From contig JAJEJD010000010.1 in assembly GCA_022828125.1 (NCBI GenBank), positions 1 through 44,472 of the forward strand: a stretch of 44,472 nt of DNA, written 5' to 3'. Positions 293 to 10,415 of the stretch are shown piece after piece. This DNA is from a bacterium (GTDB lineage: Bacteria; UBA8248). The first letter of the stretch is position 1, and every line of letters begins with the position of its first letter. The position numbers and the translations under genes are program-made. The notes under the pieces are model-generated. The model worked only from the letters and a program-made list of their open reading frames with translations. It made no database searches and had not been told where the DNA came from.

Positions 293-1318
293 TCACTTGC
301 CGTATCGCAGCCTCGCCACGGCGCCCTGCTGCGCGATCTGTCCCTGCGCGTAGCGTCCCGGCATGACCGGAGACTCCCAGCGGCCCGCGAGCTGCATCTC
401 GACCAGGGACGCCCCCGCGGAGGCCAGGCTCTGCGCGCCGCCCACCCGCAGGCTGTGGCCGCTCACCCGGCCCCCCACGCCGGCGGCCTTCCCCCACCGG
501 ATGATGATGCACCGGATGCTCTTGTCCACCAGGCGCCCGCACCGCAGCCGCCCCGCCTTGTTGACGCCCCGGAAGAGCGGTCCCTCCGTGAGGCCGGCGC
601 CCGCCACCCAGGCCCGGACGCGCTCGACCGTCGATTCTCCCAGGTACTGCGTGACCCCCACACCCTCTTGGTCGGTCTTCGAGCGGCGGATCAGCACCGT
701 CTGTTCGTCCAAGTCCACGTCGGCGACGTCCAAAGCCGCGATCTCCGACACCCTCAGCAGCGCGTCGCTCGCCACCGACACGATGGCCGCGTCCCGGAGC
801 CCGGCCAGCTTCCCCGTCCCCTCGGCCATCGCCGCCGCGCGGTCCGCCTCCTCCCAGCGGACGCCGGCCACCTTGCCCCGGCCGCGTTCCGATGCCAGGC
901 GCCGGAAGCCGGCCAGCACCCGCAGCGCCGCCTCGCCCACCGGAGAGGGACGCCCGCCCAGCTTCGCGCGGAAGCGCAGGGCAGCGACCGCCATCGTGGC
1001 GGTGGCCGCCGAGCGGCCGCTCTCATACAAACCGATGAGGTAGGCCGCCACCCCGGCGTCGGTCTCGGGGTGGCCCGAGCCCTCGAAGCCCCGCAGCGCC
1101 GCCTCGTAGGCGCGGCGCGTGTTCTCCGCTATCGAGGCGCGCATCAGATCAGCCGCCGCCCGGAACGAACCGAAGAGCAGTGAAAGGTTTTCGCGGGGTT
1201 TTGCCGGGAGGACGAATCTCCCCGGCGTCGCAGCTCTCGCGCATGGTTCTCCACGGTCCATCGGTTGCCTGGCGCCTCGAAGTTCCGGCGGCGATTCCCT
1301 CCGCGGGGTTGCCTTCAC
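293..1318 (-). CDS. Tyrosine recombinase (phage integrase family)
   Basis: Site-specific recombinase of about 341 residues that cuts and rejoins DNA through a covalent 3'-phosphotyrosine. The C-terminal catalytic residues are visible: R189 (ALLRVSEI), K214, H288-x-x-R291 (GHSLR), W314 in the place often held by His, and Y323 as nucleophile. The region around residues 45-140 fits the SAM-like core-binding domain. The start is uncertain: GTG at 1318 gives the longest form, while an ATG at 1261 would remove 19 poorly conserved-looking residues. An AT-rich -10-like stretch (TATATATTATG on the minus strand) lies just upstream near 1328-1345. It is divergent from the autotransporter, with paired inverted repeats in the gap, so it may act as a local DNA-inversion enzyme rather than a prophage integrase. 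No phage genes are nearby. Confidence 0.85.
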   Translation of the reverse strand: MKATPRRESPPELRGARQPMDRGEPCARAATPGRFVLPAKPRENLSLLFGSFRAAADLMRASIAENTRRAYEAALRGFEGSGHPETDAGVAAYLIGLYESGRSAATATMAVAALRFRAKLGGRPSPVGEAALRVLAGFRRLASERGRGKVAGVRWEEADRAAAMAEGTGKLAGLRDAAIVSVASDALLRVSEIAALDVADVDLDEQTVLIRRSKTDQEGVGVTQYLGESTVERVRAWVAGAGLTEGPLFRGVNKAGRLRCGRLVDKSIRCIIIRWGKAAGVGGRVSGHSLRVGGAQSLASAGASLVEMQLAGRWESPVMPGRYAQGQIAQQGAVARLRYGK

Positions 1319-1386
1319 GGCCCCGCGTCATAATATATATAGGCCCGCAGGCAGGAATTGCACGCAAAAAACATCATTTTCAACCC

Positions 1387-1403
1387 GATAAAATGCTTTA
1401 TCG
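1387..1403. repeat. Inverted repeat, left copy (GATAAA-ATGC-TTTATC)
   Basis: The 17-bp sequence GATAAAATGCTTTATCG is matched exactly on the opposite strand at 1565-1581. Each copy is itself a dyad: arms GATAAA and TTTATC separated by four bases, ATGC here and GCAT in the other copy. With the preceding C the arms extend to 7 bp. The size and asymmetric centre fit either a tyrosine-recombinase core site or a regulator operator. The direct-orientation left flank AACCC is also shared by both copies. Confidence 0.75.
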
Positions 1404-1564
1404 TACTCTATCATGGCCTTCACCGCCGGATCAAGCGAAATTCGAACGAAAATTCGCGGCCCCGGGCGGGGTCCTGCGCCCCGTTCGGGGGCATTTCCCC
1501 CGGATCCGCCCCGAAAATGCGGCTTCCCGCACCCCCCGGGAGCGGTTTTCGGCTGACTGGAACC

Positions 1565-1581
1565 CGATAAAGCATTTTATC
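1565..1581. repeat. Inverted repeat, right copy
   Basis: CGATAAAGCATTTTATC is the exact reverse complement of 1387-1403. The two copies bracket a 161-bp GC-rich segment (1404-1564) with several potential hairpins. They lie between the recombinase gene and the autotransporter gene, which is the geometry of an invertible segment. I see no strong promoter inside the segment in the orientation given. Confidence 0.75.
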
Positions 1582-1640
1582 AGGGAGCGGGCCGCTTCCG
1601 GTGGCAGGAGCATCCACCGCCGGGGGCGAGGAGGGGGAAA

Positions 1641-1856
1641 ATGTGGGGAACGACGCAGGCCATGACCACTCCCCGGACGCGCCCCTCCTGTTTACCGTGG
1701 CGCGCGGCGCCTGCCATACTGAGACCCGCAGACCCGCAGACCCGCAGACCCGCAGACCCGCAGACCCGCAGACCCGCAGACCCGCAGACCCGCAGACCCG
1801 CAGACCCGCAGACCCGCAGACCCGCAGACCCGCAGACCCGCAGACCCGCAGATTAG
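1641..1856 (+). CDS. Possible leader ORF through the octanucleotide repeat
   Basis: A 71-codon reading frame starts at ATG 1641 behind an unusually strong ribosome-binding site (GAGGAGGGGG, about 1629-1637). It runs through the octamer tract, giving a repeating R-P-A-D-P-Q-T-R octapeptide, and stops at TAG 1854-1856. The octamer contains no stop in any frame, so a change in copy number moves the exit frame. In the frame that begins at base 1853 the ORF would run to TGA 1910-1912, which overlaps the autotransporter GTG start. Whether the peptide is made is unknown. The candidate promoter at 1691-1720 would start transcription downstream of this ATG and would exclude it. Confidence 0.3.
   Translation: MWGTTQAMTTPRTRPSCLPWRAAPAILRPADPQTRRPADPQTRRPADPQTRRPADPQTRRPADPQTRRPAD
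1691..1720 (+). promoter_or_regulatory. Candidate promoter for the autotransporter
   Basis: TTTACC (1691-1696), an 18-bp spacer, and CATACT (1715-1720) carrying an extended -10 TG one base upstream. Transcription would begin within the octamer tract, putting nearly all repeats in the 5' untranslated region. The match is moderate and unsupported by anything else. Confidence 0.3.
1723..1850. repeat. Octanucleotide tandem repeat, 16 perfect copies of GACCCGCA
   Basis: Exactly 128 bp: sixteen uninterrupted units of GACCCGCA, with a partial unit (GA) at each edge. Perfect short tandem repeats of this length mutate by slipped-strand mispairing. In Gram-negative pathogens, tetra- to octanucleotide tracts beside surface-protein genes are known contingency loci. 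The tract ends 58 bp before the GTG start of the autotransporter. Its assembled copy number may vary among cells or be misassembled. Confidence 0.95.
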
Positions 1857-1908
1857 ATCCGGTGCGGATCGTCGCCGGAGATCCCATTACAGCTGAAAGG
1901 AGAGCGCC

Positions 1909-4900
1909 GTGAAGGTATTCCGTAAATTCAAGCTCATGTCTATGGCAGGATTCCTTCCGGAGCGATTCCCGCGCTTGGGCGCAGCGGCGTGCCTGCTCGC
2001 CCTCGGCTTCGTCCTGGTGTTCGGCGCGGAGACGGCGCAGGCGCAGGCGGATACCGCGCCGGCCATGGTGAGGACGGGGTCGGTCAGCGGGTCGACGCTG
2101 ACGCTCACGTTCTTCGCGTCGCTGGACGAGCACTCGATGACGCCGGGCAGCGCGTTCCAGGTGTCGACCACCCACCGCCCGCCCAGGACGTTCAGGGGGA
2201 CCGGCACGGCGCGGATTTCGGGCAACACGGTGAAGGTGATGCTGAACGGGGCGGTCCCCGGGGGCCCGGGCGTGCACATGGCGTACTCGATACCGTCCAA
2301 GAACCCGCTGGCGTACGCGAGCGGCCATCCCATCGCGAGCTTCACCGACAGCGGCCCGACCCCGGGCCGGGCGTTCCTGCTGCACAACCGCGGGGACAGG
2401 ACGCCGCCGACCCTGCTGGACGTGACGGTGTGGGACGGCGGGAGTCCGGTGAGCGGGAGCCATCTCAGGCTCGACTTCAACGAACGCCTGAACGCGGGGA
2501 GCGTGCCCGACGGCCGGAGCTTCCACATTACCGTGAACGGGGAGCGGCGCCATCTCTTCTCAGGCGCCCCCGCCCACATCCAGGGCGCGATCTTAAGGCT
2601 CTGGCTCAATGCCGTGGTCAGGGCCAGCGACCGGGTCGAGGTGAGCTACACCAGGGCCCCATACCGGTGGTGGGACCACCACGGCCCGCTGATGGACCTC
2701 ACCGGCAACTTTGTCGAGGACTTCTCCGCCCGGACGGCGAGCAACGCCGAGGGGCCGCCGGTGCTCTCGGAGGCCGAGGTGGACGGGACGAAGCTGACCG
2801 TGACCCTGAACGAGGAAATCGACCCCTGCTGCAAGGGGACGTGGCGCGTCAGGGCGGATGGGGTGTCCCGATCCGTACTGAACGCCGCGACGACCGTCGC
2901 CGGCAATACCCTGACCCTGACCCTCGGCGCGCCGGTCGCTGCCGGCCAGCGGGTCCGGGTCTCCTATATCGGCGACGACGTGCGGGACGTGCAGGGCAAC
3001 CGCCTGGCGCCGTTCTCCACGTACATGGACGTGACCAACAACACGGCGTCGCCGGAGTTCGTGAGCGCGAAGGTGAACGGGGCCAAGCTGACCCTCGCCT
3101 TCGACGAGCTACTGGATGCGGGCTCGGCGCCCGCGCCCGGCGACTTTCACGTGACCGCGGGCGGCGCCGGGCACGACGTAGCCGGCGTCGCCATCGACGG
3201 CGCGAGCGTGACGCTCACGCTGGAATCGGCGGTCGCCTGGGGCGAGAGCGCGGTCAGGGTGGGCTACACCAGGGGCGCGAATCCGCTCAGAGACCTCGGC
3301 GGCAACGAGGTCGCGGGCTTCACCGACCGGACGGTGGCCAACGTCAGGCCGCCGGCCTTCCAGAGCGCGCAGGTGACCGGGAAGACCCTCACCGTGCTCT
3401 TCGATGAGGCCCTGGACCCGAACTCGGTGCCCGCGCGCAGCCGCTTCTACGTCCTCGTGAACGGTCGCTGGTACCAGGTCGTCGGCCCCTGCGACGACGG
3501 CGACTGCGCCGGCGGCGTCGTCATCGAGGGTGCCAAGGTGACGCTCACTCTGGAAAAGCCGGTGGCCGAGACCGACACCGTCACGGTGAGCTACGGCAAG
3601 CGCGAGAATCCGCTGCGCGACCGCGCCGGCAACGAGGTCGCGGACTTCTCCAAGCGGCCGGTGACCTGGGTGGAGGGGCCGCCCGTGTTCGTGAGCGCCG
3701 AGGCGAACGGGGCGGTGCTCGCCCTGACCTTCGACCAGGACCTGGACGGGGGTTCGGTGCCCGCGCCCGGCGACTTCCACGTCACCGTGGGCAGCGCCCG
3801 CCGCAACGTCGCGTCCGGCGGCGTCGCCATCGACGGCAAGACCGTGACGCTGACGCTGAGCACGGCGGTGGTGCGCGACGAGACGGTCACCGTGGGCTAC
3901 AGCAAGGGCGCGAACCCGCTGCGGAACGCCGCCGGCTTCGCGGTCGCGAGCTTCGGCGACCAGGAGGTGGACAACGCCACGCCGGACCCGAATATATGGT
4001 CGGCGACGCTGACGGTCGGCAGTACTGCTGTAGACGGCGCTGTTGGTTGTGACAATGCCACCGATAACCCATGCTCCAGTGCGCTAACCGACGGGGTGTT
4101 CGAGTTTGAGGAAGGGGAATATCACGTCAATATCATCACCTATAGCGGTGGCGCCATCGCCATCACGCTACACGCTGCGTGGCCCGAGACACTTCGGAAC
4201 AATGGGTCGGTGGACGTCGGCGGAGTCCCGCTTTCCCTTGCCGAGGCAAGTTACCTTGCGACAAATAGAACAGCAGCGTGGACTGGTACCTCTGTCAGTT
4301 TTTCCACTGGCGACAAGGTCTCGTTCAGCCTGACGACTTCCGGCTCCGACGCCGGCGGTACCTCGGCCAACTCCGGCCCGTCGTTCCACAGCGCGTCCGT
4401 GAACGGAAATCGACTGACTGTCATCTTCGACGAGGCGCTGGACGAGGACTCGGCGCCCGACGGGGGCGCCTTCAGGGTGAGGACGCTGCCCGACGGCGGC
4501 GGAACGGGGAAGCGCTCGGCGCAGGGACAGGGCGGCACGTCCTCCGGGACGGGCGCGACGAGCGTCGCGGGCCGGACGGTGACGGTGACGCTGGACCGGC
4601 CGGTGGCGCCCGGCGACCGGGTGGTGGTGTCCTACGACCGGCCGGACGAGAACGCGGTCCGCGATCGGGAGGGCGGCGAGGCGGAGGGCTTCTCCGGGCG
4701 CCCGGCGGCGAACGTCCCTCCGGCGCCGCCGGTAACCGCCGTGGCGGTGGTCTCGGACGCAGGGAGCGACGACACCTACGCGCTCGGCGACACGATCCGG
4801 GTGCGCGTCACCTTCGCCGAGAAGGTGAACGTGGACACCGCGGGCGGCACGCCGCGGCTGACGATCAAGATGGACCCGACCTGGGGCGAGTTCCGGGCAT

Positions 4901-7524
4901 CCTACGCGGGCGGCTCCGGCACGGCGAATCTGGTCTTCACCCACACGGTGGTGGAGCCGAACACCTCGCCGCGCGGCATCGCGGTGCTGGCCAACACGCT
5001 GCAAGCCAATGGCGGCGCGATCCGGCTGGCGGCGACGAACGCGAATGCGCGGCTCGGGCACACAGGGCTCGGCCACGACGCGAAGCACAAGGTGAACTGG
5101 CGGATCTCGCCGCCTGTGGCGAGCGCGCCGCCCGGCGCCCCGACCGGGGTGACCGTGCAGGGCGCGTCGAACACGAGCGTTACGGTGAGCTGGACGGCGC
5201 CGTCGGAGGCCGGTTCTGCGGCCATCGCAGGCTACGAGCTCCGCTGGTACGCCGGCGCGTCGGACCCGGCGAATGCGTCCGACTGGACGGAGACCGGCGA
5301 CGTGGGCTCCGGAACGAGCGCCACGATCGGGGACCTTGCGGCGGACACGGCGTACCGGGTGCAGGTGCGCGCGCGGGGCGCCGGCAAGGGGCCGTGGTCT
5401 TCGAGCGGCGCGGGCCGCACGCAGGCGGCGGGCGACACGACGCCGCCGGAGCCTGTGAGCGCGACGGTGAACTGGCGCGCGGTGACGGTCACCTTCGACG
5501 AGGACCTGGTGGCGGTCGGCGCGGGTGCGAGCCTCAACTTCTGGTTCACGGTCACGGGCGGCGGGACGCAGCAGCACCCGGTGCGGGCCACGGCGTCGGG
5601 CCGGACGGTGACGATGGAGCTCGGCGAGGGCAGGCCGGCGCGGGCCGGGCGGTCCTACACGATCGGCTATTTCGGCAACGGGCCGATCAAGGACGCGGCG
5701 GGCAACGCGGTGGTGCGGTTCGGCGGGCTGGCGGCGGAGAACCTGACGCAGCCCCGGCTCTCGGTGGCCGATGCCAGGGCGAAAGAGGGCACGGACGCGT
5801 CGATCAACTTCGCGGTGACGCTGGACGCGGCCGCGGACGAGGTTGTGACGGTGGACTACGCGACCGCCGACGGCACGGCGACGGCGGGCGAGGACTACAC
5901 CGCGGCCTCGGGCACGCTGACCTTCGCCGCGGGCGAGCGGAGGAAGACGGTGAGCGTGGCGATCCTCGACGACGCCATCGACGAGGGGGAGGAGACGTTC
6001 GCCTTAAGGCTCTCGAACGCCGAGGGCGCGGTGATCGGGGACGGCGAGGCGACCGGCACGATAATCAACTCGGACGCGATGCCCCGCGCCTGGCTGGCGC
6101 GGTTCGGGCGGGCGGCGGCCGAGCACGTCGCCGACGCGATAGGCGAACGCCTGCGCGGGTCGCCTGCGACGCGGGTGACGCTGGGCGGACAGGAACTGGA
6201 CTTGAGCTCCGATCCGGACGCCCTCCCCTTGCGGGGGAACGCCTCCCTCACCGGGACGGATCCGGGCCTCACCGGGGGCGCTCCGCTCCTGGCGAGCGCG
6301 AACGGGTTCGGACGCGGCCTGGACGAGCGGACGGGGGAGGACGCGGCGGCGACGGTGCGCGAGCTCTCGATGCCCGACCTCCTGCTCGCGAGCTCGTTTC
6401 ATATGGCCTCCGCGGACGGCGGGGACGCGAGCGCTTCCGGGCGCTGGTCGGTCTGGGGCCGGGCGGCGCGGTCGAGCTTCGAGGGCGCGGAAGGGGCGCT
6501 GACGCTCAAGGGCGACGTGACGACGGCGACGCTGGGCTTCGACTACGAGCGCGGGTCCTGGCTCGCGGGCGTGGCGCTCTCGCGCAGTTCCGGCGAGGGA
6601 TCGTATGAGCAGACGGGCATGAAGGGCGAGGTCGAATCGGGCCTCACGGGCGTCTACCCCTACGCGCGCTACCGGGTGAGCGAGAGCCTCTCGCTCTGGG
6701 GCGTCGTGGGCTTCGGGGCGGGCGACATGACGCTCGAACCCGAGGGGACGTCCTCCATCGAGACGGACATCGAGACGGGCATGGCGGCGGCGGGGGCGCG
6801 CGGCGTCCTGCTCCCGGCTCGTGCGGCGGGCGGTTTCGAGCTCGCCCTGCGGGCGGACTTGATGGCCACCGCGACGGCTTCGGACGCGGCAAGCAACCTG
6901 GCGGAGACCGAGGTCGAGACGAGTAGGCTCCGGCTGCTGATAGAGGCCTCGCGCGAGTTCCGGACGGGGGACGGGAGCGCCCTCGCCGCCTCGGTCGAGG
7001 CGGGCCTTCGCTACGACGGGGGCGACGCGGAGACGGGGAGCGGCCTGGAAGCGGGCGGCTCCCTGCGCTGGACCTCGGGAAGCCTCGCGGTGGAGGTCGC
7101 CGCGCGCGGCCTCATGGCCCATTCCGAGGACGACTACGAGGAATGGGGCGTGAGCGGCTCGGTGCGCTACGCGCAGTACCCTGACGGGCGCGGGTTCTCG
7201 ATGCGGGCCGGCTCGGCCTTTGGCGCGGCCGCCGGCGGTGCGGAGCGGCTCTGGTCGCAGCGGGCGGCGGGCCTCGCGGGAGGCGAGTTCGCACCCGGGG
7301 CGGGCTTCGACGCCGAGGCGGCCTACGGGTTCGGCTTCCGGGGCGGTCTCCTGACGCCCTACACGGGCGTGGCGCTCTCGGACTCCGGCGACGTCTGGCG
7401 CGCGGGCGCCCGCTGGAAGCTCGGCGCAGCCACCGAGGTGAGCCTAGAGGCGAGCCTGCGCGAGAACGCCGCCGGCGACGACCCCGAGAGCGGGGTGCTG
7501 CTCAAGGGTTCGAGGCGCTGGTAG
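1909..7524 (+). CDS. Modular autotransporter adhesin (SwmB-like/FN3/Calx-beta repeats, C-terminal beta-barrel)
   Basis: Surface protein of 1,871 residues predicted to be exported by Sec and anchored by its own outer-membrane barrel (type V secretion). It starts at GTG 1909 behind GAAAGGAGA. The N-terminus has a long basic segment and a hydrophobic core ending near ETAQAQA (about residue 46). There follow about six roughly 95-residue Ig-like SwmB-type repeats, recognisable by xLTVTFDExLDxxSxPxxxxFxV. Then come a compositionally distinct domain (about residues 695-805), another SwmB repeat, an FN3 domain (about 1072-1174), a further SwmB-like repeat, a Calx-beta domain (about 1282-1387) and the barrel (about 1510-1871), ending GVLLKGSRRW. 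It is probably a binding protein, with no enzyme motif seen. Upstream repeats suggest phase-variable expression. A decayed barrel related to this one lies at 12,490-13,000. Confidence 0.88.
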   Translation: MKVFRKFKLMSMAGFLPERFPRLGAAACLLALGFVLVFGAETAQAQADTAPAMVRTGSVSGSTLTLTFFASLDEHSMTPGSAFQVSTTHRPPRTFRGTGTARISGNTVKVMLNGAVPGGPGVHMAYSIPSKNPLAYASGHPIASFTDSGPTPGRAFLLHNRGDRTPPTLLDVTVWDGGSPVSGSHLRLDFNERLNAGSVPDGRSFHITVNGERRHLFSGAPAHIQGAILRLWLNAVVRASDRVEVSYTRAPYRWWDHHGPLMDLTGNFVEDFSARTASNAEGPPVLSEAEVDGTKLTVTLNEEIDPCCKGTWRVRADGVSRSVLNAATTVAGNTLTLTLGAPVAAGQRVRVSYIGDDVRDVQGNRLAPFSTYMDVTNNTASPEFVSAKVNGAKLTLAFDELLDAGSAPAPGDFHVTAGGAGHDVAGVAIDGASVTLTLESAVAWGESAVRVGYTRGANPLRDLGGNEVAGFTDRTVANVRPPAFQSAQVTGKTLTVLFDEALDPNSVPARSRFYVLVNGRWYQVVGPCDDGDCAGGVVIEGAKVTLTLEKPVAETDTVTVSYGKRENPLRDRAGNEVADFSKRPVTWVEGPPVFVSAEANGAVLALTFDQDLDGGSVPAPGDFHVTVGSARRNVASGGVAIDGKTVTLTLSTAVVRDETVTVGYSKGANPLRNAAGFAVASFGDQEVDNATPDPNIWSATLTVGSTAVDGAVGCDNATDNPCSSALTDGVFEFEEGEYHVNIITYSGGAIAITLHAAWPETLRNNGSVDVGGVPLSLAEASYLATNRTAAWTGTSVSFSTGDKVSFSLTTSGSDAGGTSANSGPSFHSASVNGNRLTVIFDEALDEDSAPDGGAFRVRTLPDGGGTGKRSAQGQGGTSSGTGATSVAGRTVTVTLDRPVAPGDRVVVSYDRPDENAVRDREGGEAEGFSGRPAANVPPAPPVTAVAVVSDAGSDDTYALGDTIRVRVTFAEKVNVDTAGGTPRLTIKMDPTWGEFRASYAGGSGTANLVFTHTVVEPNTSPRGIAVLANTLQANGGAIRLAATNANARLGHTGLGHDAKHKVNWRISPPVASAPPGAPTGVTVQGASNTSVTVSWTAPSEAGSAAIAGYELRWYAGASDPANASDWTETGDVGSGTSATIGDLAADTAYRVQVRARGAGKGPWSSSGAGRTQAAGDTTPPEPVSATVNWRAVTVTFDEDLVAVGAGASLNFWFTVTGGGTQQHPVRATASGRTVTMELGEGRPARAGRSYTIGYFGNGPIKDAAGNAVVRFGGLAAENLTQPRLSVADARAKEGTDASINFAVTLDAAADEVVTVDYATADGTATAGEDYTAASGTLTFAAGERRKTVSVAILDDAIDEGEETFALRLSNAEGAVIGDGEATGTIINSDAMPRAWLARFGRAAAEHVADAIGERLRGSPATRVTLGGQELDLSSDPDALPLRGNASLTGTDPGLTGGAPLLASANGFGRGLDERTGEDAAATVRELSMPDLLLASSFHMASADGGDASASGRWSVWGRAARSSFEGAEGALTLKGDVTTATLGFDYERGSWLAGVALSRSSGEGSYEQTGMKGEVESGLTGVYPYARYRVSESLSLWGVVGFGAGDMTLEPEGTSSIETDIETGMAAAGARGVLLPARAAGGFELALRADLMATATASDAASNLAETEVETSRLRLLIEASREFRTGDGSALAASVEAGLRYDGGDAETGSGLEAGGSLRWTSGSLAVEVAARGLMAHSEDDYEEWGVSGSVRYAQYPDGRGFSMRAGSAFGAAAGGAERLWSQRAAGLAGGEFAPGAGFDAEAAYGFGFRGGLLTPYTGVALSDSGDVWRAGARWKLGAATEVSLEASLRENAAGDDPESGVLLKGSRRW

Positions 7525-7633: not shown

Positions 7634-8353
7634 ATGAAATTTCGTCTTTTGTTTGCTCAGATGACCACAATCGACACCGAAGTGACGCTGGACGAGCGCC
7701 TCAGGCGGGCGATCACCGCCTGGTGCTGGCGGCGCGGGATGAGCGGGCGCCGCTTCGGCGCGGACGCGCTGGGGGACCGCGGCTTCGCATACAGGCAGGC
7801 GCGGGGCCGCACGCTGCAGCTCGCGACGGCCGACCGGGTGCTGGCCTTCATCGGGTACCCGCCGCTGGGTCCCGCCTTCCGGCTGGAGCTCGATACCTAC
7901 CTGGCGGTGAGCGGGACCAAGCTCTCGATCCTGGGCGAGTTGGCCCTGGGCGACCCCTCCTTCGTGGGGCGGTTCCGCCGGGGCGTATCGCCGCATCTCG
8001 CCACGGTCGACCGCGTGCGCGCCTGGACGGCGGCCAATGCGAGCGCAGAAGAAGTCCGGGCCATCCGGGCGCGGCTGGCGGAGGCGGCGCCCGGGATACA
8101 TCCCCTCGCCAGGCCCGGTAGGGAAGGCATGAACGGGCATGACGGGGACTCGCTGAGCGAGCGGGAGGCGGCCGCCCGGCTGGGCATCTCGCCGGGGGTG
8201 CTGGGAAGCTGCCGCTTGCGCGGCGAGGGGCCCGCCTTCCGCCGCATGGGCAACCGGTTGCGCTACCGGCCCGCGGATATCGATGCGTGGGCGCGGGCGC
8301 AGCGGTGGACCTCCATATCCGAGGAGAGAAACGCGCGGGGGAAGCGCTCATGA
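7634..8353 (+). CDS. HTH regulator: duplicated Xre-like module fused to an AlpA/excisionase-type HTH
   Basis: A putative DNA-binding protein of 239 residues. Residues about 17-75 and 83-142 are two copies of one module that align around ALGDxxFxxxxxxGxxxxLATxDRVxA, a pattern of small Xre-like HTH proteins. Residues 172-225 form a MerR/AlpA-like winged HTH (LSEREAAARLGIS, RxMGNRLRYRPADIDAWA), as in excisionases. Starts are ATG 7634 (GGGAGA upstream) or ATG 7661. An internal ATG at 8129, preceded by AGGGAAGG, would release a 74-residue HTH alone, matching the size of the free-standing paralogue at 8810. Probable role: local control of the recombinase or adhesin; this is inferred from position only. 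Confidence 0.7.
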   Translation: MKFRLLFAQMTTIDTEVTLDERLRRAITAWCWRRGMSGRRFGADALGDRGFAYRQARGRTLQLATADRVLAFIGYPPLGPAFRLELDTYLAVSGTKLSILGELALGDPSFVGRFRRGVSPHLATVDRVRAWTAANASAEEVRAIRARLAEAAPGIHPLARPGREGMNGHDGDSLSEREAAARLGISPGVLGSCRLRGEGPAFRRMGNRLRYRPADIDAWARAQRWTSISEERNARGKRS

Positions 8354-8598: not shown

Positions 8599-8716
8599 AT
8601 GAAGACGCTCGATACCGACATGACGCTTGTTGATCGACTGCGCGGGGCGGATACCGACCGGCGCGAACGAAGACGAACTCCGCGCCATCCGCGAGAGGCT
8701 CACGTACACGAACGAC
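8599..8716 (+). pseudogene. Internally deleted remnant of the duplicated HTH module
   Basis: The first 14 or so codons (MKTLDTDMTLVDRLR) match the start of the protein at 7661 (MTTIDTEVTLDERLR). About 40 bp later, in another frame, ANEDELRAIRERL matches ANASAEEVRAIRARL at that protein's residues ~135-149. Roughly 120-130 codons between them are gone and the frame is shifted. This shows that the 7634 locus and the 8599-9037 locus derive from a tandem duplication, the second having lost its Xre-like half. The stretch 8354-8598 before it holds no gene I can recognise. Confidence 0.7.
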
Positions 8717-8809
8717 ATGAAAATTCATGCCGGGACAAGGCGCCCGGCGCATTCACCGCAAGGGCCCCGGCTGCCGGGGCCGCTCACGAGGAACAGAGGA
8801 GAGATACGC

Positions 8810-9037
8810 ATGAACGAGAACGCCAGGAACTACCTGAGCACGCGGCAGGCGGCGGAGTGGCTCGGCCTCTCGCCGAGGACGCTGGACCGCTACCGCGTGA
8901 CCGGCGAGGGACCCGTATTCCACCGCTTCGGCTCCCGGGTGCGCTATCTGCTCGCAGACCTGGAGACGTGGGCCAAGTCGCGGCGGCGGGCGTCGACGTC
9001 CGATGAGGGAGGTGCCAGTGAGAGGAAGGAGCGCTAA
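8810..9037 (+). CDS. AlpA/excisionase-like helix-turn-helix protein
   Basis: A 75-residue single-domain DNA-binding protein. It starts at ATG 8810 behind AGAGGAGAG. The motif order LSTRQAAEWLGLSPRTLDRYR, then FHRFGSRVRYLLADLETWAK, is the winged HTH of the MerR-like excisionase/AlpA group. These proteins bend DNA for recombinases or switch on prophage or integrative-element genes. It is closely similar to the C-terminal domain of the protein at 7634. The short basic C-terminal tail has no other domain. With a tyrosine recombinase 7.5 kb away, a role as recombination directionality factor is possible but unproven. Confidence 0.8.
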   Translation: MNENARNYLSTRQAAEWLGLSPRTLDRYRVTGEGPVFHRFGSRVRYLLADLETWAKSRRRASTSDEGGASERKER

Positions 9038-10133: not shown

Positions 10134-10415
10134 ATGCATAAAGATACGACGATTCCCTTTATGAATCCAGCCTTTCGCGACGAGTTGAGCGAACTGGTGC
10201 GTGAGAACGCGCAGCGAATCATTCAGCAATTCGTGGAAGCGGAATTGCATGCTTTTGCGGAGGAGCATGCAGTCGCGCGGTGACGCGTGGTTGTTCTGGG
10301 TGGCTACTTGTCCTCGCGGGAGCTGTTGACGAGTATCGGGCTGGTCAAGATGCAGGTTCCCCGGAAGCAGAGGTGGGCTACGGCGTGGACACGCCGGGCA
10401 GACTTGGGCTGGTGA
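10134..10415 (+). pseudogene. Decayed IS256-family transposase, N-terminal remnant
   Basis: The reading frame from ATG 10134 gives a typical IS256-type N-terminus (PAFRDELSELVRENAQRII, then VEAELHAFAEEHA). An in-frame TGA follows at 10281. The same frame then continues with YLSSRELLTSIGLVKMQVPR, the match to the conserved region preceding the catalytic domain, and ends at TGA 10413. Nothing of the DDE catalytic domain remains. It is unlike the intact element at 40,922 at the N-terminus, so it is a separate insertion history. Confidence 0.75.

Follow-up and report, generated by a model that had tools for sequence, protein, structure and literature searches.

Organization of the locus

The stretch of DNA analyzed here (the window; 44,472 nucleotides) is a whole contig of a genome assembled in 32 contigs, and it starts just past a recombinase gene. 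This gene and a divergently oriented gene for a large surface protein flank a short region with the 17-mer GATAAAATGCTTTATCG at positions 1387–1403 and its exact reverse complement at 1565–1581. Short inverted repeats thereby frame a segment that adjoins a site-specific recombinase gene, the arrangement that characterizes an inverton. The coordinates of all features are compiled in Table 1.

Table 1. Features of the predicted switch and its flanking genes
Feature	Position	Strand	Remarks
Cre-like tyrosine recombinase, 341 aa	293..1318	-	Pfam Phage_integrase, 1.4e-16; alignment with Cre and relatives
Putative left recombination site	1382..1408	+	Core TAA-AATGCT-TTA at 1389–1400; arms CCCGATAA / TTATCG; from sequence and homologous position in other complete loci
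Putative left 6-bp crossover spacer, AATGCT	1392..1397	+	Private to the window locus among spacers found in its genome
Predicted invertible segment, spacer to spacer	1398..1570	.	Site-to-site distance 179 bp
Promoter-like element TTGATC-N18-TAGAGT (weak)	1405..1434	-	Points at recombinase as assembled; weight-matrix scan and alignment
Putative right recombination site	1563..1590	+	Core TAA-AGCATT-TTA at 1568–1579
Putative right 6-bp crossover spacer, AGCATT	1571..1576	+	Exact reverse complement of left spacer
Adhesin leader	1582..1908	+	Homologous to leader of the adhesin orthologue in genome G003
Target gene, 1871-aa surface adhesin	1909..7524	+	SWM/Big_5, fn3, and Calx-beta domains; conserved C-terminal barrel-like region

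A first-pass annotation had described the locus as a tyrosine recombinase gene next to inverted repeats and a divergent autotransporter gene. The domain content bears out the recombinase (Phage_integrase) and the surface protein (SWM, Calx-beta, fn3). The term "autotransporter" refers to a C-terminal region that is barrel-like in appearance and common to the paralogues; a Pfam scan of the 1909–7524 product reported no autotransporter domain. The genome of the window contains paralogues of the adhesin, and an orthologue in G003 (locus L112, G003:C9) is 84% identical in the C-terminal region.

The adhesin leader contains, at 1722–1849, sixteen tandem head-to-tail copies of the 8-bp unit AGACCCGC, of which the orthologue in G003 has two or three. 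Slippage may change the length of this repeat, with possible effects on expression that would not depend on inversion. Downstream of the adhesin are two excisionase-like helix-turn-helix (HTH) genes (7634–8353 and 8627–9037), the first of which encodes a Pfam HTH_17 protein. The first HTH gene recurs as an 83% identical copy next to an adhesin paralogue (L048) and has a relative near a lipoprotein gene in G004 (L179).

Positions 1–139 of the window are near-identical to G000:C30:615–753 and to positions 10262–10400 of L067, and this repeat recurs elsewhere in the genome. It looks like the tail of a group II intron, although its 34.7 bits fall short of the gathering score of 40. In two genomes it is located downstream of a recombinase. 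Its presence probably explains why the contig ends at this point.

A Cre-like recombinase

The closest solved structures of the recombinase are nearly all of Cre (E about 4e-15). Alignment with Cre reveals a complete catalytic set (R189, K214, H288, R291, W314, and Y323) that is conserved in the relatives. The AlphaFold model of the enzyme is too poor to use (pLDDT 46), and the likeness to Cre is one of sequence similarity. The dN/dS values of 0.27–0.43 against the relatives indicate that the recombinase is under purifying selection.

A paralogue in the window's own genome is 73% identical. Close relatives occur in five of the six other species of the genus, and the genomes searched outside the genus contain only distant ones. 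Each related recombinase has an inverted site pair upstream. Exceptions are the second enzymes of three tandem pairs (L065, L066, and L067), two of which lack the catalytic lysine and one the histidine. Because of these lost residues the second enzyme may be decaying or a regulatory partner; the second copies nevertheless show dN/dS values of 0.23–0.28. Upstream of a distant gammaproteobacterial recombinase (L017, about 45%) the search gave no comparable site pair.

A family of homologous putative switches

The repeats at 1387 and 1565 are the sole inverted pair of at least 14 nucleotides with copies 60–500 bp apart in the 44-kb window, and 40 random sequences of matched dinucleotide composition contained no inverted 17-mer. 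Likewise, the motif GATAAANNNNTTTATC with at most one mismatch was found twice, against 0.03 expected. The exact inverted 17-mers of the first-pass annotation are present as described. Each repeat is indeed a dyad, as had been noted. The functional center is not the 4-bp one, however, as the 21 other complete loci display the pattern TAA-N6-TTA with a matched 6-bp spacer. Because the spacer of the window starts with A and ends with T, its dyad appears longer than its core.

The module is found at 23 loci, 22 of them complete, in six of the seven genomes of the genus (including that of the window, where four switches were found). These genomes are MAGs of uncultured Nitrospinota, and isolate names suggest that they come from sponge projects. 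A query with one segment recovered further copies without an intact recombinase next to them; the window's own genome has two of these. About half of all switches are orphans of this kind, and they retain both sites, matched spacers, and the promoter upstream of a lipoprotein gene. The enzyme therefore probably works in trans.

At the complete loci the sites are 168, 169, or 179 bp apart, distance classes that differ by one helical turn. When ∼0.9 Mb of fetched DNA, some of it from overlapping loci, was scanned for site pairs 100–400 bp apart, only members of the TAA-N6-TTA switch family emerged, all with one of these three distances. A site-like match at G002:C10 has no partner site, and an isolated match to GATAAA-N4-TTTATC at G000:C15 (L001) is a single copy.

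The recombinase shows weak similarity to integron integrases, and the modules stand upstream of varied genes, as might be expected of a mobile-element or integron-type integrase acting at its attachment sites. However, the sites keep a fixed distance of 168–179 bp around a conserved promoter segment and enclose no cargo, no cassettes were noticed at the orphan copies that were read, and the recombinase scores 13 bits with TIGR02249, far from the cut-off of 265 for an integron integrase. An attachment-site function is thus highly improbable.

Spacers match within loci and differ between loci

The left spacer is the reverse complement of the right spacer at all 22 complete loci. Over all loci there are 15 different spacers, namely AATGCT, CTGTTA, TTGCTG, TTATTA, TTGATG, TTGTTG, TTGCGA, TTATTG, TTGTCG, TTTCTA, TTGCTA, TTATCA, TAGTTA, and ATATCA at the complete loci and TTAATA at the truncated locus. 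The pattern used to find pairs demanded matching spacers, and the homologous site positions were therefore also checked directly by eye. In this way L062 (CTAA-TCGCAA-ATATC), which the pattern had missed, was found to have matching spacers, too. With L062 left out, random re-pairing of the spacers of 21 loci yielded at most eight matches in 20,000 trials.

The agreement between both sites is confined to the core. The bases just outside TAA-N6-TTA agree between left and right in only 1–2 of 21 loci, and the partly conserved arms differ consistently (GATAA/TTATC on the left versus CGCTAA/TTACGG on the right). Since the matching ends at the edge of the core, only the exchange block appears to be homogenized. 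By their sequences, matched spacers between unmatched arms are the signature of strand exchange by a tyrosine recombinase, a reaction that both needs and generates such identity. The sites also have the layout of lox-type sites, with inverted arms and a spacer that is identical between partners.

All spacers within each genome differ. This uniqueness is not significant (P = 0.10) and some spacers are one base apart; selection for unique spacers within a genome is unsupported.

The first-pass annotation had also considered that the dyads could be operators of a nearby HTH protein. Operators of this kind, or ones bound by the recombinase itself, would control the divergent promoter region by a mechanism other than inversion. 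The sites are dyads, the adhesin is followed by two excisionase-type HTH genes, and the assembled orientation is invariant, all of which would suit an operator. An operator does not need private matched spacers, however, and here 15 spacers match within their loci, flanked by arms that are not the same at the left and right sites. In the loci searched, HTH genes occur only beside one adhesin paralogue and one switchless lipoprotein and at no other switch, so that the other fetched switches have no cognate HTH gene, and autoregulation would have no object at the orphan switches, which lack a neighboring recombinase. As it accounts for neither the private matched spacers nor the orphans, the operator model is very unlikely, and recombination between paired sites is the better explanation for the dyads.

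The segment carries a predicted outward-facing promoter

At the place homologous to the promoter-like element of the window, the relatives feature TTGACA-N16-TATATT or close variants, which are near consensus, with the -10 element a few bases from the left site. The elements are strong in the segments of 20 relatives and weak in the window (10.1 bits in a weight-matrix scan, compared with 14.6–17.1 bits in other loci). A scan for the consensus found the promoter in L059 and none in the window. At 21 of 21 loci the best predicted promoter of the segment reads away from the surface gene, in the direction of the recombinase at loci that have one. The opposite strand of these segments contains nothing comparable that faces the gene.

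Inverted sequences with covarying spacers would also be able to pair, and the repeats could be kept as the stem of an RNA or DNA hairpin, such as an attenuator or a cruciform. Pairing ends sharply after 12 bp at nearly every locus, though, and an Rfam scan of the region returned nothing besides the group II intron-like tail. Moreover, because the promoter would fire outward near the left site, the inverted pair would lie outside the transcript of the segment promoter. A conserved hairpin is improbable in the extreme.

Surface genes behind the putative switches, and copies that were lost

The gene beyond the segment codes for a surface protein wherever it is assembled; two loci are cut off by the contig end before reaching it. 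At most loci this is a lipoprotein whose signal peptide and lipobox are conserved (MTFREKSI..YAFALAAVFALTLAGCGGGG). A Pfam scan of three of these lipoproteins gave no matches. One lipoprotein finishes with a run of predicted strands, and its AlphaFold model (pLDDT 44) is too poor to use. Other targets are a PKD and collagen-like protein at some loci (L062, L065, and L066) and the adhesin in the window. In L065, as read by eye, phosphoribosyltransferase-like and lysozyme-like genes follow the collagen-like gene. The adhesin is thus the candidate for control in the window, as had been proposed, whereas an autotransporter switch is not the general picture, the device being multilocus and its targets mostly lipoproteins. 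A role of the adhesin as the conserved partner of the recombinase is ruled out by the other surface genes that take its place in relatives.

Some members of these gene families have no switch. Two lipoprotein paralogues, one of them in the window's genome, are switchless and are preceded by a gene-facing TTGACA promoter-like element instead. In G002 there are only relics of the recombinase, no switch was detected, and the lipoprotein genes are switchless. Judged from these remains, recombinase and switches were lost together in this species.

At the adhesin orthologue of G003 (L112), 28 recombinase codons and the edge of the right site remain. In place of the rest of the switch stands other sequence, whose gene-facing promoter-like element bears a loose resemblance to the fixed element of the unswitched lipoproteins. 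One edge of the replacement lies inside the right recombination site. The replacement is suggestive of a natural locked-ON allele. Because this orthologue retains a relic of the recombinase, the pairing of recombinase and adhesin is older than the split of the species.

The switch family might be real and the copy in the window locked or decaying, its sites remaining while its promoter erodes. This would fit the low promoter score of the window, the loss of related copies in G003 and G002, and the sequence of the segment, which is among the most diverged and is missed by a query with a typical segment. On the other hand, the two sites still agree exactly over 17 bp and in their spacers, the distance between them remains 179 bp, and the recombinase combines a complete catalytic set with purifying selection. 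We therefore consider a locked or decaying copy unlikely.

Orientation and proposed mechanism

The combined evidence points to an invertible-promoter phase switch in the window that is a member of a multilocus set (probability roughly 0.84). The idea of the first-pass annotation, a recombinase that flips a promoter segment beside a surface gene, gains support from the homologous modules, the matched spacers, and the promoter of the segment. The same annotation had named an invariant orientation in relatives as evidence against inversion, and so far all 22 complete loci are OFF, i.e. with the promoter pointing away from the surface gene. When 18 genomes were searched with a pattern for the flipped junction, all hits were OFF copies or matches by chance. 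As all loci are assembled OFF, we infer the inversion itself. We likewise infer that the flipped promoter would drive expression, that the enzyme acts in trans, and that the spacers serve as specific addresses.

The loci were read from consensus MAG contigs, and the invariant orientation for this reason weakens the case without overturning it. In Bacteroides fragilis, the Tsr19 switch was OFF in three of three sequenced genomes, one of which was explained by <1% of the cells being ON (PMC3090145). Since assemblies show the majority state, and given this precedent, the all-OFF pattern could come from a biased switch, though it is no proof of one.

We propose that the recombinase would cut within both inverted TAA-N6-TTA sites and exchange strands over the 6-bp spacer, thereby flipping the segment of roughly 170 bp. 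In the OFF state, as assembled, the segment promoter would drive the recombinase. After inversion to the ON state, transcription from it would pass through the leader to the surface gene and would cease to reach the recombinase. Orphan switches would be served by enzyme supplied in trans, and strand exchange itself would keep both spacers of a locus identical.

As the arms are common to the switches and the spacers locus-specific, one enzyme could serve many switches, with each site recombining for the most part with its own partner. A single Cre-like recombinase, or a few of them, might then act in trans while private spacers confine recombination to the own partner, so that loci could be shuffled independently and without genome rearrangement. 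We give this model slightly less than even odds. The address step is offered tentatively, because spacer uniqueness is not significant and some spacers differ by a single base. At the level of the genus, the sequences suggest that surface proteins are probably flipped on and off one locus at a time.

Relation to known systems

A close parallel to the switch in its layout is ipuS/upaE, with IpuA/IpuB, of uropathogenic Escherichia coli, where a tyrosine recombinase also adjoins an invertible promoter before an autotransporter adhesin, and where several recombinases act on more than one element (PMC6083910). The ipuS system has 7-bp repeats, a 260-bp element, Fim-type enzymes, and three switches (PMC6083910), whereas the enzyme here is Cre-like and the switches are many, with differing spacers. 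Clostridioides difficile (RecV and others) possesses several short elements per genome, e.g. one of 174 bp with 19-bp repeats, and one recombinase acts on more than one invertible element (PMC9286219). It differs in phylum and targets. The invertible promoters of B. fragilis (Mpi/FinA, Tsr19) likewise form a genome-wide set for surface genes with a recombinase that acts at a distance (PMC3090145, PMC6083910). They control polysaccharide loci, in contrast to the lipoproteins and the adhesin found here. Mpi is a serine enzyme.

Cre of the phage P1 Cre-loxP system is the closest solved relative of the enzyme, and both systems have inverted arms around a spacer. The loxP site consists of 13-bp arms and an 8-bp spacer. 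In engineered orthogonal LoxPsym sites, which demonstrate that spacers can work as addresses, spacer identity influences which sites recombine (PMC10850332), although the strictness of this requirement in Cre is disputed, with looser behavior in PMC1479339. In contrast to LoxPsym, the variants described here are natural and frame promoters, with conserved arms of about 7–8 bp and a 6-bp spacer. In Mycoplasma agalactiae, site-specific recombination at the Vpma locus varies multiple surface lipoproteins (PMC2268961), as proposed here. The present switches belong to dispersed genes, each with its own switch, rather than to a cluster. The Vpma genes are clustered and have one common promoter.

The proposed mechanism is that of known invertible promoters. 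What sets the present switches apart is their Cre-like enzyme, their spread over many loci with matched but differing spacers, and their host lineage. A search of the open-access literature turned up no description of phase switches in sponge-associated Nitrospinota.

Our findings point to phase-variable surface proteins at multiple loci of uncultured bacteria. If the proposed mechanism is true, a single Cre-like enzyme would in nature serve many loci that are told apart by their spacer only. This has a bearing on how strict the requirement of tyrosine recombinases for identical spacers is. New recombination tools could be derived from the sites and enzymes. For the bacteria themselves, phase-variable adhesins and lipoproteins would suggest a variable interaction with the host, phages, or neighbors.
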